A stretch of 29,110 nt of DNA from a virus. Where the stretch lies: IMG/VR virus record IMGVR_UViG_3300031702_000458, positions 1-29,110 of that record. The stretch is one strand, 5' to 3'. Both the position numbers and the translations under genes were made by a program. The notes below the pieces were generated by a model that did no database searches, was not told the origin of the DNA, and was given only the letters and a program-made list of their open reading frames with translations. Position 1 is the stretch's first letter; each line of letters starts with the position of its first letter. Below, one piece after another: positions 21,471 through 27,069 of the stretch.

Positions 21471-21478
21471 TATAAATA
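21471..21478 (+). promoter_or_regulatory. T4-late-type promoter box (TATAAATA) before the curli-like block
   Basis: Exact TATAAATA in the 70-base gap before the first membrane protein gene; start of that gene is 31 bases downstream. No sigma70-type promoter is seen here or in the next 5 kb, so the curli-like block is probably a late transcript. Confidence 0.65.
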
Positions 21479-21509: not shown

Positions 21510-21788
21510 TTGGAGTTTTTATCATTCATAGGAGACGTAGGTTTCCCTATAGCGTCTGCCTTGGCAGGAGGATTCTTCGTATTCCTCACCCTCAAGTTTA
21601 TTCTTGCAGGTGTGCTTGATGACATTAAGACACAACGTATGTTTGCTATGGCACTTGATAATAGAATCAAGACCATGAACAATGAACTCGTTCGCATTGA
21701 TGTTTTGATGTCACACGCGTTTCATATTAAACCAGACATGGATCGTATTGCCAGAGCAGACGGTCAGAAAGATGCGAGGAAAGATTAA
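21510..21788 (+). CDS. Small membrane protein with C-terminal coiled coil (copy 1)
   Basis: 92 aa from TTG 21510 (CAGGA 9 bases upstream). One hydrophobic span near the N-terminus (V-G-F-P-I-A-S-A-L-A-G-G-F-F-V-F-L-T-L) followed by a cytoplasmic-looking helix with D-N-R-I-K-T-M-N-N-E-L-V-R-I-D. It is similar in layout to the protein at 21979 (G-F-P-I ... D-R-V-R-M-L-D-N-D-L-I-R-L), reminiscent of YvrJ-type or holin-like proteins. Could be a holin, or an inner-membrane partner of the CsgG/CsgF pair; neither is proven. First gene after the late-type promoter. Confidence 0.6.
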   Translation: MEFLSFIGDVGFPIASALAGGFFVFLTLKFILAGVLDDIKTQRMFAMALDNRIKTMNNELVRIDVLMSHAFHIKPDMDRIARADGQKDARKD

Positions 21789-21979
21789 TGTCAGATATTG
21801 ATAACTTAGGTTCTTTGTGGGTTGGTTACCACATCAAACAGAATGGTAAAGACTTTAGAGTTGGTGGTGACCAACAAACAACAACTGATGAGATACTAGG
21901 TCGGTTGTTTAACATAGGTGATACCTTCACAGTGAATGAAGAAGGTACCCTGATACATATAGGTAGCAAGACAGAATAA
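21788..21979 (+). CDS. Hypothetical protein (63 aa) within the curli-like block
   Basis: Coupled on both sides by TAATG overlaps, so a real gene. Soluble, beta-rich look: W-V-G-Y-H-I-K-Q-N-G-K-D-F-R-V-G-G ... G-D-T-F-T-V-N-E-E-G-T-L-I-H-I-G. No signal peptide, no membrane segment, no family recognised. Confidence 0.6.
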   Translation: MSDIDNLGSLWVGYHIKQNGKDFRVGGDQQTTTDEILGRLFNIGDTFTVNEEGTLIHIGSKTE

Positions 21980-22299
21980 TGGAAGAATTAGCAACCGCGA
22001 TAGGGCAGTATGGTTTCCCGATAATTGCCGCAGGTGGTCTTGGATACTTCATATTATATATTTGGAGATGGGTGACTGAGGAAGTTGATCCAGTCATATC
22101 CGAATCTCATATGACATTAATTGCACTCATAGACAGAGTTAGAATGTTGGACAACGACTTGATCCGACTACAAACGAAACTCAATATGATACTGCAACAA
22201 CAAGAAGAGAAAGGCGAGAGATATGATAAAGTTGGCACAGAACTTGCTTCTACTAGTGATACTAGTAACGATAGTACAGAAAGCGACAGCACAGGATAG
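21979..22299 (+). CDS. Small membrane protein with coiled coil (copy 2)
   Basis: 106 aa. One membrane span (Y-G-F-P-I-I-A-A-G-G-L-G-Y-F-I-L-Y-I-W) then a helical region (L-I-A-L-I-D-R-V-R-M-L-D-N-D-L-I-R-L-Q-T-K-L) and a Ser/Thr/Asp-rich tail, which is the part that overlaps the csgF start. Same layout as the protein at 21510: G-F-P-I before the span and a D-x-R-x-x-x-x-x-N-x-L-x-R-x motif after it, so the two are probably paralogues. Role inferred to be envelope-related. Confidence 0.6.
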   Translation: MEELATAIGQYGFPIIAAGGLGYFILYIWRWVTEEVDPVISESHMTLIALIDRVRMLDNDLIRLQTKLNMILQQQEEKGERYDKVGTELASTSDTSNDSTESDSTG

Positions 22300-22669
22300 T
22301 TACGAGTTTAACACTCCTACATTTAGTGGGATAGGATACTCTGCACACATCTTGACGCAAGAGCAGATGAAGCAAAGAAACAAAGAGACAGAAAGAGATC
22401 GGGAAGAATCACGACTAAGAGAAATAGAAAGAGATTTTGAGAATAGCAACTCACAACGTTTTCTAAACAACTTCGAGTCTAGAGTATATGCTCAGTTGTC
22501 TAAGCAGTTGGTTGAATCATTGTTTGGGGAAGATCCTCAGTCAGATGGTACATTCAACTTAGGGGATGATGTTGTAACGTACTCCAGTGATGGTGTTACT
22601 ATTACATTGACTATTACTTCACCGGACGGTACTACTACTACGATAGTAATACCAGTAGGTGGGATATAA
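22223..22669 (+). CDS. csgF: CsgF-like curli assembly protein
   Basis: In curli systems CsgF caps the CsgG pore outside the cell and couples secretion to nucleation of fibres. 148 aa: signal peptide (L-L-L-L-V-I-L-V-T-I-V-Q-K-A-T-A, cleavage near residue 23), then the pore-inserting N-terminus D-S-Y-E-F-N-T-P-T-F-S-G, comparable to the F-R-N-P-N-F-G-G of E. coli CsgF. A charged helical insert (R-D-R-E-E-S-R-L-R-E) is followed by the family end: L-x-x-Q-L-V-E-S-L-F-G and I-T-L-T-I-T-S-P-D-G-T-T-T-T-I-V-I-P. Lies directly before csgG and overlaps the preceding gene by 77 bases. Confidence 0.88.
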   Translation: MIKLAQNLLLLVILVTIVQKATAQDSYEFNTPTFSGIGYSAHILTQEQMKQRNKETERDREESRLREIERDFENSNSQRFLNNFESRVYAQLSKQLVESLFGEDPQSDGTFNLGDDVVTYSSDGVTITLTITSPDGTTTTIVIPVGGI

Positions 22670-22675
22670 TAAGTT

Positions 22676-23434
22676 ATGGGAAAATTAGGGTTACTTCTGG
22701 TGGCAATAATGGCGAGTGGTTGTGCAACTTTGCATACCCCACCTAATGTCGATCCAGAGAATTATCAACCAGTAACACAGGAAAAGAGTAACTACTACTC
22801 TGATCCACCAGAACGAGGGAAGGTCTATGCGGCAGTATATAGTTATGCCGACTTGACTGGACAACGTGCGCAAGGGACGCAGACTCTCTCTACTGCCGTA
22901 ACGCAGGGGGGAGCAAACTACCTCATTAGTGCTTTGTCAGACTATAGTGATAGATCATGGTTTAGAGTTGTAGAACGAACTGCTGTAGATAATATCCTTC
23001 GGGAAAGACAGATAGTAAGGTCAACGCGTCAAGCGGCAACTCTAGATACGAAACTTCCTGCGATGTTATATGCAGGAGTTATATTTGATGGTGGTATCAT
23101 TGGTTATGATGCAAACGTACAGACAGGTGGTCAGGGAGCAAGAATCTTTGGTCTTGGGATGGCAGAAAAATATTCCCATCATCTTGTTACTGTATCATTG
23201 AGAGTCATTAGTGTAACAACTTCGGAGGTACTGCTTACTGTAATTACTGAGAAGAACATAGTTAGTTATGGAGATAATATTACTGGAATGAGATTCTTTG
23301 ATCTCGATAGGGAAGTGCTTGAAATAGAGAATGGTATGAATGTCAACGAGGCATCATCATATGCCGTGCGCAAGGCGATAGAAAAGTCTGTTCACGATAT
23401 TGTCCAACAGGGCATTAAACGTAATGTGTGGTAA
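22676..23434 (+). CDS. csgG: CsgG-like curli secretion channel lipoprotein
   Basis: CsgG forms a nonameric outer-membrane pore through which curlin subunits are exported. 252 aa (E. coli precursor 277). Lipoprotein signal with lipobox M-A-S-G-C16. Alignment with E. coli is easy: V-Y-A-A-V-Y-S-Y-A-D-L-T-G-Q, L-S-T-A-V-T-Q-G, S-R/D-S-W-F-R-V-V-E-R, N-I-L-R-E-R-Q-I-V-R, I-I-G-Y-D-A-N-V-Q-T-G-G-Q-G-A-R and V-S-L-R-V-I-S-V-T-T. The constriction residues of E. coli (Tyr51, Asn55, Phe56 of the mature protein) are Gln66, Thr70 and Leu71 here. The C-terminal tail of E. coli (after W-D-L-Q) is missing. No damage; expected to be a functional pore. Confidence 0.93.
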   Translation: MGKLGLLLVAIMASGCATLHTPPNVDPENYQPVTQEKSNYYSDPPERGKVYAAVYSYADLTGQRAQGTQTLSTAVTQGGANYLISALSDYSDRSWFRVVERTAVDNILRERQIVRSTRQAATLDTKLPAMLYAGVIFDGGIIGYDANVQTGGQGARIFGLGMAEKYSHHLVTVSLRVISVTTSEVLLTVITEKNIVSYGDNITGMRFFDLDREVLEIENGMNVNEASSYAVRKAIEKSVHDIVQQGIKRNVW

Positions 23435-23460
23435 CGAGTACCGCACGAAGGAGAAATAAG

Positions 23461-24171
23461 ATGAGAATGCAAAAAGGTATTCTCTTTGTTATGGGTTCAT
23501 TGGTTATTGGTTTGGGGCACACACCCCTATACGCAGACCAATCAGTGTACATCGATCAGGTAGCAGGTGATAATCTGACTCTAACTATCAACCAGAATAG
23601 CGGTGACGGTAACAGTATCGGAGATCCAACCGCAGTTGGTGACTCGCAATACTTCGCGATAGACGGAGATAGTCAGACAATTACTGTAGATCAAATAGGT
23701 AGTAGCAATACGCTTACAGGCAGTATTTTATATACTGATACATTTGAGTTTGATTTGTCACAGACTGGTAGTACTAACACATTTGCTATTGAGCAAGAGG
23801 GCGGTAGTAACGGTTCTATTGTTGCAGACTTTGTTGGTAGCAATAACGATGTAATTATAGACGCAGGACTCGTAACTAGTTCTGAGTATATGAATTTGGA
23901 CTTAGATGTTACTGGTGACTACAACGTGTTCGACTGGACTATCGATGCTGATGGTGTATTGAACAACGTTACCGTTGCAGGTGACTACAACGACTTCGAG
24001 ATTGACCAGAATGGTTATGGTACTAGTATAGATTACCATGAAGTAATTATGAATATGGTCGGTGACAACAATGTGGTCGATATCATACAGGAAACTACAT
24101 TAAATGCATCACATATTGACCTCGACCTCAGTGGTGATAATCAGGTTATTACTATTACTCAGTCTGACTAA
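23461..24171 (+). CDS. Secreted curlin-repeat-like protein (probable fibre subunit)
   Basis: 236 aa. A strong ribosome binding site (AAGGAG) precedes ATG 23461. Signal peptide ends near L-Y-A-D (about residue 25). The mature protein is a run of degenerate repeats with the curlin logic of Q-x-G-x-x-N-x-x-x-I-x-Q: e.g. V-D-Q-I-G-S-S-N-T-L, L-S-Q-T-G-S-T-N-T-F-A-I-E-Q, V-G-S-N-N-D-V-I-I, V-G-D-N-N-V-V-D-I-I-Q, L-S-G-D-N-Q-V-I-T-I-T-Q; about six to eight are visible. It is acidic and Cys-free. As the likely cargo of the CsgG/CsgF pair, it may form a surface amyloid fibre. It resembles CsgA/CsgB only by repeat logic; no separate nucleator is seen. Confidence 0.78.
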   Translation: MRMQKGILFVMGSLVIGLGHTPLYADQSVYIDQVAGDNLTLTINQNSGDGNSIGDPTAVGDSQYFAIDGDSQTITVDQIGSSNTLTGSILYTDTFEFDLSQTGSTNTFAIEQEGGSNGSIVADFVGSNNDVIIDAGLVTSSEYMNLDLDVTGDYNVFDWTIDADGVLNNVTVAGDYNDFEIDQNGYGTSIDYHEVIMNMVGDNNVVDIIQETTLNASHIDLDLSGDNQVITITQSD

Positions 24172-25162
24172 TGTCACATATGCGAGTATAGGTACTGTAA
24201 CTGAACTAGAAGGAAGTGGGATTATAGCAAGGGAGAATTTAGAACTCCCTGCTGATCTCACTGCCTCCGTTGAGATGGATGATGAAATACAAACTGGGAT
24301 GGGTTCTGTAGGAATTACCTTCGATGATGATACTCAGGTAATGATCGGAGAACACTCCGAACTGTACATTGATGATTTTGTATATGATCCTTCGGATGAC
24401 TCAGGTTCACTGGGTCTTCTAGTAACGATGGGTACTGTTAAGTACACGTCTGGGGCACTCGCCCATGCCAATACAGATTCAGTAGATATCCAAACCCCCT
24501 CCGCATCCATTGCGGTGAGGGGTACCTCTTTCAGTATGACCGTAAACGAGATCGGAGATTCTCTTATCGTATTGCTTCCTAACTTAGATGGCACGGTAGG
24601 AGAGATCTCAGTCGATACGGCAGTCGGTCAGGTTATATTGAATAAAGCATTCCAGTTGACCCATGCTAAGAACAGAGAATTACCCCCATCTAAACCTATC
24701 ATCATTAGTATTGATGCCAACATGATCAACAACCTAATGTTGATTTCGCCACCACCTGCACTTCAACAACAGATGATTGATGAGCAGACGGATGCCTTGT
24801 CCGAAGACTTACTAGATGATTCTTTCCTAGATGAGGATGAACTAGAAGAAGATGTACTGGAGTTCGATGAACTAGAGATCAATGAGTTACTGGTGGATCT
24901 ACTTGCCAATGCTCTAACTGATCCTCTGGCAGAAGTAGAGGACGGACGAGAGACAGGGTTCAACCAAACGACTGGTGTATATACATTCATTACCGATGGT
25001 GGCAGTATAGGTCGCGTAGTCAGATACGGTAACTCTTCGGTAGTAGATATCAAATATGCAGTACCTAGTGGTAGTAGTATTAATCTCAGTCAACAAGATA
25101 TAAGAGTTGAGATATATACTAATGACGAATCAGCAAATAATGTTAACATAACCCAAGACTGA
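24104..25162 (+). CDS. Secreted FecR-domain protein
   Basis: 352 aa with an N-terminal signal peptide (I-I-R-L-L-L-L-L-S-L-T-N-V-T-Y-A) encoded in the same 68 bases as the last curlin repeats. Residues about 35-165 form a FecR domain (I-Q-T-G-x-x-S-V-G-I-T-F-D-D-D-T-Q-V, M-G-T-V-K-Y, V-D-I-Q-T-P-S-A-S-I-A-V-R-G-T). Then a long acidic region (about 225-265, runs of D/E/L) and a C-terminal beta-rich part. The FecR domain here is not paired with a TonB receptor or sigma factor; as a periplasmic sensor-like protein it may pass signals to the cyclase encoded next. Start could also be GTG 24131 or 24134, both still inside the upstream gene. Confidence 0.82.
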   Translation: MHHILTSTSVVIIRLLLLLSLTNVTYASIGTVTELEGSGIIARENLELPADLTASVEMDDEIQTGMGSVGITFDDDTQVMIGEHSELYIDDFVYDPSDDSGSLGLLVTMGTVKYTSGALAHANTDSVDIQTPSASIAVRGTSFSMTVNEIGDSLIVLLPNLDGTVGEISVDTAVGQVILNKAFQLTHAKNRELPPSKPIIISIDANMINNLMLISPPPALQQQMIDEQTDALSEDLLDDSFLDEDELEEDVLEFDELEINELLVDLLANALTDPLAEVEDGRETGFNQTTGVYTFITDGGSIGRVVRYGNSSVVDIKYAVPSGSSINLSQQDIRVEIYTNDESANNVNITQD

Positions 25163-25172
25163 GGCAATGACA

Positions 25173-26978
25173 ATGAAGTTTTTGTGGAGTCCCTTATGGG
25201 CATTACTAACTACCATTCTTCTTTTCGGAATAAGTCAATCCAATCCTAAGTTCCTACAGATGGTCGAACTCAAGTGGTTTGACATTATGATGTTGGACGA
25301 ACCAGTTCGATCAGATGAAACCGTGCTGATTAACATAGGCGAGGAATCGCTGATCAACCACGGACAGTTTCCCTTTCCGCGAAACGTATATGGAGATTTA
25401 ATTGACCGTCTTCGACTTGCAGATGCAGGTGTCATTGTTTTCAATATGAGTTTCCCAGAGAAAGATCGGACAGGACAAGATGCTAAGTTCATTAGTGCCA
25501 TGTCCCAAGGTGTTGTACTCTCTCACTTCCCAGACTGGAGACCAAGACGGTCAGTCTACACAACTGGCATTGCTGAGATAGGAGAACGTGCAGGACAGTT
25601 CGTTCCTCAGTACCGTGGCATTATCGGTAACCTACCAGAGTACGAGAAGTCTGCGTCTGGTATTGGTCTTGCCAATACGCTACCAGAGATCGATGGTGTG
25701 GTACGGAGACTACCTTTGGTGTCCGAGTCCAATGAGATCCTCTATCCCAGTATCCTACTAGAGATTATGAAAGTCTACTCAGGCACCAACACATACTCAA
25801 TCAAGAGTAATGTCGCAGGTATCCAAGCAATCAAGGTACGCAAGTTCAAGAAGATCTTGACGAGTCCAGACGGACAGATCTGGATCAATCCTAACATTAC
25901 CCACGAAACATATGAAATGGATGATGCATTTACTGGTCTTGCAGGTAAAACGGTGTTTGTTGGCGTAACTGCTAACGGACTCGCAAACCCTGTACCTACC
26001 GCCAATGGAGGTCGCTACGCGCACGAGGTTACGGCCTCAGCGTATTCAAGTTTAAGGATGGGGTATGACATCAACCAACCGTACTATAGTGACTTTGTTC
26101 GTGACTATTCTGTTCTAGTCATTGGATTGCTGATAGTATTACTGTCGTGGTTTAGATTTGGTGGTCTGGCAGTACTATTAATACCAATATCCGTTGTATA
26201 TGCAACTCAGGCAGACTTCCTCTATAGTCCTATCAATGGCGCATTGTTCGGTCTATTGGTTGCACTCCATGTATATGGTGTTAAGTACGTCCAAGAGTTC
26301 ATGGCAAAGATGCAGATCAAGAAACAGTTCGGGACATACCTGTCGCCTGATATGGTAATGATGCTACAGAAAGATCCTACCCTATTAAAACTTGGGGGTG
26401 AGAGAAAGGAGATGACTTTTCTCTTTATGGACATTGTGGGGTTCACTCCTATCAGTGAGTACTACAAGAACAACGATGATCCCGAAGGTCTGGTGTTACT
26501 AGTCAATGAGTTCCTAGATGCAATGACACAGATCATCCTGAACAATGGTGGCACCATCGACAAATATATGGGCGATTGTATAATGGCATTCTGGAATGCT
26601 CCGTTGCCGTGTGCTAACCACGCAGAGATGGCAGTCAAGTCTGCAATAGAAATAGAGAGTAAGACGAATGAACTTAAAGCAGTTTACAAAGAAAGAGGTC
26701 TTCCAGATATCAACGTTGGGACTGGTGTTAATACCGGCAATTGTATTGTTGGCAATATGGGCAGTGATTCTAGATTCGACTATTCGGTTATTGGGGATGC
26801 CGTTAACCTTGCGGCAAGACTCGAAGCAACTGCCGCACGACACGAGTATCTAGAGTATAAGACTATTATAAGTAGTATGACTAAAGACCAGTTACCCAAA
26901 GACTTCCCTACAACTAAGATAGGGGAGATCACAGTCAAAGGCAAGGAAGATGTAATCACCATCTACTCGCCATACTAA
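25173..26978 (+). CDS. CHASE2-domain class III adenylate cyclase
   Basis: Makes cAMP; inner-membrane receptor. About 601 aa from ATG 25173 (GAGG with 8-base spacing; ATG 25167 is too close). One N-terminal membrane span, then a periplasmic CHASE2 domain (roughly 30-300: W-F-D-I-M-M, V-I-N/L-I-N-I-G-E, F-P-F-P-R), then three spans (about 310-370), then a C-terminal class III cyclase catalytic domain. Metal-binding D420 (F-M-D-I-V-G-F-T) and D468 (K-Y-M-G-D), adenine-selecting K464 and D536 (F-D-Y-S-V-I-G-D), and N545/R549 (A-V-N-L-A-A-R) are all present, so it should be active and ATP-specific. It follows the FecR gene closely, probably same operon. Such enzymes are rare in phage genomes. Confidence 0.92.
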   Translation: MKFLWSPLWALLTTILLFGISQSNPKFLQMVELKWFDIMMLDEPVRSDETVLINIGEESLINHGQFPFPRNVYGDLIDRLRLADAGVIVFNMSFPEKDRTGQDAKFISAMSQGVVLSHFPDWRPRRSVYTTGIAEIGERAGQFVPQYRGIIGNLPEYEKSASGIGLANTLPEIDGVVRRLPLVSESNEILYPSILLEIMKVYSGTNTYSIKSNVAGIQAIKVRKFKKILTSPDGQIWINPNITHETYEMDDAFTGLAGKTVFVGVTANGLANPVPTANGGRYAHEVTASAYSSLRMGYDINQPYYSDFVRDYSVLVIGLLIVLLSWFRFGGLAVLLIPISVVYATQADFLYSPINGALFGLLVALHVYGVKYVQEFMAKMQIKKQFGTYLSPDMVMMLQKDPTLLKLGGERKEMTFLFMDIVGFTPISEYYKNNDDPEGLVLLVNEFLDAMTQIILNNGGTIDKYMGDCIMAFWNAPLPCANHAEMAVKSAIEIESKTNELKAVYKERGLPDINVGTGVNTGNCIVGNMGSDSRFDYSVIGDAVNLAARLEATAARHEYLEYKTIISSMTKDQLPKDFPTTKIGEITVKGKEDVITIYSPY

Positions 26979-27040: not shown

Positions 27041-27069
27041 TTGACAGATCCTCACTTCCGTGTTATAAT
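27041..27069 (+). promoter_or_regulatory. Consensus sigma70-type promoter with no clear gene behind it
   Basis: TTGACA (27041-27046), 17-bp spacer, TATAAT (27064-27069). The next safe gene begins only at 27207, after a second promoter. A 30-codon frame (ATG 27077 to TAA 27169) lies in between without a ribosome binding site; a small RNA is also possible. Confidence 0.75.

Follow-up and report, generated by a model that had tools for sequence, protein, structure and literature searches.

A CHASE2-adenylate cyclase closing a curli-type operon with a T4-type late promoter element in a marine phage

The curli-type operon and its phage setting

The window, i.e., the whole stretch of DNA that was analysed, is a virus record of 29,110 bases (IMGVR_UViG_3300031702_000458) with an even composition throughout. 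On its plus strand lie, in this order, genes for the curli assembly chaperone CsgF (22223..22669; PF10614, E 4e-17), the outer-membrane curli pore CsgG (22676..23434; PF03783, E 2.7e-42), a curlin-repeat protein resembling the fibre subunits CsgA/B (23428..24171; PF07012 in two stretches, E 2.8e-8), a FecR-domain protein (24104..25162; PF04773, E 2.9e-8) and a CHASE2-class III adenylate cyclase (25167..26978). The FecR-domain protein has a hydrophobic, signal-like N-terminus and is predicted to be periplasmic. These Pfam matches bear out the original prediction, which had placed the cyclase beside a FecR protein and a curlin secretion system.

The operon opens with two paralogous small single-span membrane proteins, also on the plus strand, of 92 aa (21510..21788; start codon uncertain; conserved in related loci) and 106 aa (21979..22299). 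Both matched phrog_18771 (E 4.6e-28 and 1.2e-28, respectively) and showed no kinase domain in Pfam, so that a histidine-kinase identity is not supported for either. The paralogues have a coiled-coil-like tail and stand at the operon head in nearly all relatives (in L048 and L051, one of them sits after csgF, not before it); the C-terminal end of the first carries a conserved DGxxDARRD-type motif.

Directly before these two genes lies TATAAATA (21471..21478, plus strand), a T4-type late promoter -10 element. Of 40 related loci, 25 have it at this relative position, in the matching 280-base interval, whereas a first-order Markov null gives a mean of 1.0 and a maximum of 4. A control for register, spanning about 8 kb, gave one sharp peak, at the operon head (23/40), with no more than 7/38 in any other interval; the 40 loci are mutually related and hence non-independent, but the peak is still position-specific. 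Downstream of the cyclase, a perfect sigma-70 consensus promoter (27041..27069, plus strand; 12/12 match) marks the start of the next transcription unit. Within 150 bases, the segment 27041-27181 combines a further TATAAATA (27109) with two strong promoters of the sigma-70 type. For the Melnitz phage, 15 late promoters were given and TATAAAT was used; the available part of that paper contains no statement on a late promoter at the Melnitz curli operon (PMC9004378). No riboswitch or other known RNA was found in the window.

The genes upstream of the operon are T4-like and include the clamp loader, DNA polymerase, a UvsX-like recombinase, a DnaB-type helicase, primase and thymidylate synthase. 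The nearest phage polymerase is that of Phage C48C1 (Kyanoviridae; 69%), for which no host is recorded and on which the literature offered nothing decisive; its record was absent among the cyclase-bearing phage records (50,697 records searched). The contig is thus that of a marine T4-like (Kyanoviridae-type) phage. Its GC content is 43%, versus 35% in the HTVC008M stretch. Between primase and recombinase, the segment 12308-14331 encodes a nucleotide-sugar epimerase and a UDP-glucose dehydrogenase, possible surface-sugar genes whose order C48C1 shares, and an ORF at 2008-3201 matches both an ABC-type ATPase and a GNAT acetyltransferase (phrog_11143).

The CHASE2-cyclase

The cyclase ORF is intact and encodes 603 aa. 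It had been predicted at 25173-26978; the gene and its CHASE2 and cyclase domains stand, with 25173 being the second Met of an ORF that opens at 25167. Homologues begin with "MK", and 25173 may be the true start codon. In Pfam, CHASE2 (PF05226) covers residues 16-319 (E 1e-33; 117.4 bits versus a cut-off of 26.3) and Guanylate_cyc (PF00211) residues 414-598 (E 5.7e-20), while the phage family phrog_35576 was matched over the full length of the protein. Hydropathy peaks occur at residues 5-23, about 308-329 and about 331-352; the fourth span corresponds to a helix (356-388) seen in the AlphaFold model only. The spans fit the usual 1+3 CHASE2 topology, with the sensor between an N-terminal span and three further ones, in agreement with the sensor domain and four membrane spans of the original prediction.

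The AlphaFold model (mean pLDDT 83, pTM 0.60) was built from an alignment without the Melnitz row, and loop 530-537 has low confidence in it. In Foldseek, the cyclase domain matched CyaB (3r5g; TM 0.79 by target length) and also CyaC. The metal-binding aspartates are D422 and D470, the adenine-selecting lysine is K466, and N547 and R551 form the transition-state pair. The alignment of 81 viral sequences shows no variation at D422, K466, D470 and R551, and N547 is retained in 80 of them. Of the complete residue set that had been claimed, only the adenine-selecting Asp did not hold: when aligned with CyaB (3r5g) and CyaC (1wc0/1wc1), the protein has Ser540 opposite their Thr at this position, Asp538 lying two residues before it. 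Adenine selection was judged by Lys with either Thr/Ser (class IIIb) or Asp (class IIIa); with Ser540 at the Thr position of CyaB and CyaC, the enzyme therefore looks like class IIIb, a pattern that, together with Lys466, would still favour ATP. From these residues we infer that the phage cyclase converts ATP into cAMP.

Values of dN/dS between 0.04 and 0.25 in five of six close cyclase pairs, those with informative synonymous distances, point to purifying selection; one of the five (L025/L026) is near synonymous saturation, and the sixth is uninformative, its two members being nearly identical. The gene apparently encodes a full-length, functional enzyme in a real phage genome.

Viral and bacterial relatives

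The cyclase matched nine of the 50,697 phage records, six of which span 80% or more of its length (two records of the pelagiphage HTVC008M and four Melnitz methylophages), and at least 599 stretches in IMG/VR. All viral homologue loci that extend far enough upstream show the gene order CsgF-CsgG-curlin-FecR-(second curlin)-cyclase. Most of them have the second curlin gene between FecR and the cyclase; it is absent from the window and from L035, L041, L061 and L070. This cluster is also present in HTVC008M and Melnitz, whose annotations include the cyclase. Curli genes were reported in pelagimyophages (PMC7029224), and a 2022 paper described FecR and adenylate cyclase as part of the type VIII secretion (curli) cluster of pelagiphages, both podo- and myoviruses, noted the alphaproteobacterial affinity of this cluster and detected viral curli proteins at every one of the 65 GOV2.0 stations (PMC9599517).

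In our tree, which also includes 46 bacterial cyclases, the 20 viral ones fall into a separate, fully supported clade. Five bacterial rows join them in the next larger starred set (support 97, SH-aLRT only); by the drawn tree, these are the marine alphaproteobacterial loci L092, L114, L122, L129 and L143. The search for a bacterial donor by phylogeny, suggested in the original prediction, thus leads to marine alphaproteobacteria as the nearest relatives. In all five, the gene directly upstream of the cyclase encodes a cyclic-nucleotide-binding domain fused to an HlyD adaptor (L092:8276-9991, L114:1500-3215, L122:8233-9957, L129:8229-9956 and L143:2747-4474). In these nearest cousins the cyclase is flanked by two cyclic-nucleotide-binding proteins amid type I secretion genes. 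L092 shows the order outer-membrane efflux protein, C39-type ABC transporter, cyclic-nucleotide-binding HlyD fusion, CHASE2-cyclase and cyclic-nucleotide-binding protein, and its other strand carries HlyD, ABC and FecR-RTX genes; the last of these holds the only FecR domain found in this 1.4-Mb genome, about 8 kb from the CHASE2-cyclase. Judging by these neighbourhoods, the fusion protein and the cyclase possibly form a cAMP-gated type I secretion system.

Across the bacterial relatives, a set in which Bradyrhizobium is over-represented, the gene immediately upstream of the cyclase carries a FecR domain in 23 and HlyD_3 in 14 of 51 loci; where at least 5 kb of upstream DNA was available, FecR was found nearby in 35 of 58 and FecR or HlyD in 41. 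Among the FecR proteins examined near bacterial cyclases are adhesins of the RTX and cadherin types. The BiofilmReg operon of Burkholderia joins a LysM-FecR protein to a histidine kinase that bears CHASE2 (PMC5192318). On the evidence of gene neighbourhood, bacteria have long paired FecR with the CHASE2-cyclase, often in association with surface proteins. No curli genes were found near 80 bacterial CHASE2-cyclases, CsgF was absent from the genomes of 14 close bacterial cousins, and neither FecR nor cyclase lay near csgFG in the three loci examined in alphaproteobacterial genomes with CsgF. Within the loci examined here, the link of the pair to curli occurs in phages only.

Possible roles and comparison with known systems

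In the reading that we prefer, and to which we give an even chance, the cyclase would act as a late-made envelope sensor. A membrane class IIIb adenylate cyclase with a periplasmic CHASE2 sensor would be the last product of a late-transcribed operon running from the two small membrane proteins through CsgF, CsgG, curlin and FecR. The infected cell would export a curli-like fibre during virion production, the periplasmic FecR-domain protein would serve as partner or ligand of CHASE2, and the cyclase would convert the state of export or of the envelope into cAMP. Gene neighbourhood suggests the binding of FecR by CHASE2, and the second curlin gene that separates the two in most viral loci speaks against it. 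That the authors of the Melnitz paper noticed no clumping of cells in infected cultures (PMC9004378), and that the Melnitz operon persists with an altered cyclase site, likewise tell against this reading. Cyclic-nucleotide-binding domains (PF00027) were absent from eight related phage records, of which two are full (HTVC008M and Melnitz-3) and six perhaps incomplete; any cAMP would therefore have to act on a host receptor. The literature on cAMP receptors in SAR11 gave nothing decisive. The FecR/CHASE2-cyclase pair would have come from alphaproteobacteria, where its neighbours are surface-adhesin loci and, in many cases, type I secretion genes, and would have been joined to type VIII (curli) secretion in the phage lineage. 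The position of the bacterial relatives, next to type I secretion genes and adhesins with a FecR domain, lends independent support to the coupling to surface assembly proposed in the original prediction.

A broader, more tentative possibility is that FecR and the CHASE2-cyclase constitute a general bacterial export-sensing unit, in which a FecR surface protein would report its own secretion through CHASE2 to cAMP, with feedback on the secretion machine through the cyclic-nucleotide-binding HlyD adaptors of marine alphaproteobacteria. Phages would then have joined this unit to curli, giving late fibres and a cAMP signal.

Three other readings appear unlikely. The first is an early host takeover in which cAMP, with no involvement of fibre export, would reset the catabolite control, motility or biofilm state of the host to the phage's advantage. 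The intact active site is compatible with it, and cAMP-CRP governs metabolism and biofilm in gammaproteobacteria. However, a T4-type late promoter that occupies a set position in most relatives speaks against host catabolite control being seized early in infection, and the cyclase is always accompanied by curli and FecR genes in the loci with enough DNA. The broad catabolite-control reset that had been predicted, if taken as early in infection, is therefore a poor fit, and late expression would suit a role in virion production or release better than one in early host takeover.

The late promoter also agrees with the regulation of lysis, in which CsgG would work as a gated channel or in the manner of a pinholin, while the cyclase and the small membrane proteins would adjust when the cell lyses; a lysis role was proposed for CsgGF, with the cyclase not included, in the Melnitz paper (PMC9004378). 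The two single-span proteins at the operon head suit this explanation, as do a weak holin-family match for one of them (phrog_4898, E 0.008) and a weak YvrJ match in five members of their family, but the holin-like matches are not significant. The module also contains a curlin-repeat fibre subunit, which is superfluous for a lysis pore, and we consider this explanation improbable.

There is similarly little likelihood that the domain yields another cyclic nucleotide (e.g., cGMP) or is a non-catalytic sensor relic. The guanylyl cyclase Cya2 is among the nearest folds in Foldseek, but its structure has Glu and Gly where the phage enzyme has Lys466 and Ser540, the adenylyl pattern of CyaB and CyaC. 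Among the homologues, only the Melnitz cyclase (L083) has a changed site, with Asp at the adenine position and Ser for the catalytic Asn; its operon has still been kept, so catalysis may be dispensable in some lineages. Against a relic stand the catalytic residues, retained in at least 80 of 81 sequences, and purifying selection. Finally, that the cyclase belongs to a bacterial chromosome segment or a chimera, as its bacterial-type domains might suggest, has next to no probability and is ruled out by the T4-like replication genes upstream, the full-length homologues that lie close to baseplate and tail genes in complete phage genomes, the fully supported viral clade apart from bacteria and the even composition of the window, so that the phage setting of the original prediction holds.

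The late-made envelope sensor thus remains our preferred reading. Curli clusters in phages have a wide distribution in the ocean, and the late promoter, together with a FecR/CHASE2-cyclase pair shared with bacterial adhesin loci, leaves fewer possible roles for them and raises the question of whether cAMP is under the control of FecR or fibre export. The cyclase is real and interesting but is not a new kind of system: gene and setting are already in print (PMC9599517, PMC7029224, PMC9004378; HTVC008M annotation), novelty is not supported, and our additions, on timing and origin, are modest.

With CyaB of P. aeruginosa (3r5g) and CyaC of Arthrospira (1wc0), the phage cyclase shares the fold, the metal Asp pair, Lys, Asn and Arg; it differs in having Ser540 in place of Thr and an attached CHASE2 membrane sensor. 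As in the bacterial pairs of FecR and CHASE2 sensor (the alphaproteobacterial loci and Burkholderia BiofilmReg), a FecR-domain protein adjoins a CHASE2 protein, but the bacterial pairs are joined to type I secretion genes and RTX/cadherin adhesins, or involve a histidine kinase, whereas the phage pair is joined to curli genes. Also among the closest known systems is the pelagiphage type VIII secretion cluster (HTVC008M, KC465899; Melnitz, MZ577095-98), which has its gene order in common with the window and full-length cyclase homologues of 41.5% (HTVC008M) and 33% (Melnitz) identity. The window differs from it in GC content (35-37% in the HTVC008M and Melnitz systems), in the missing second curlin gene and in its small non-kinase membrane proteins (Pfam), where the 2022 paper lists a histidine kinase before CsgF for the podovirus clusters (PMC9599517).
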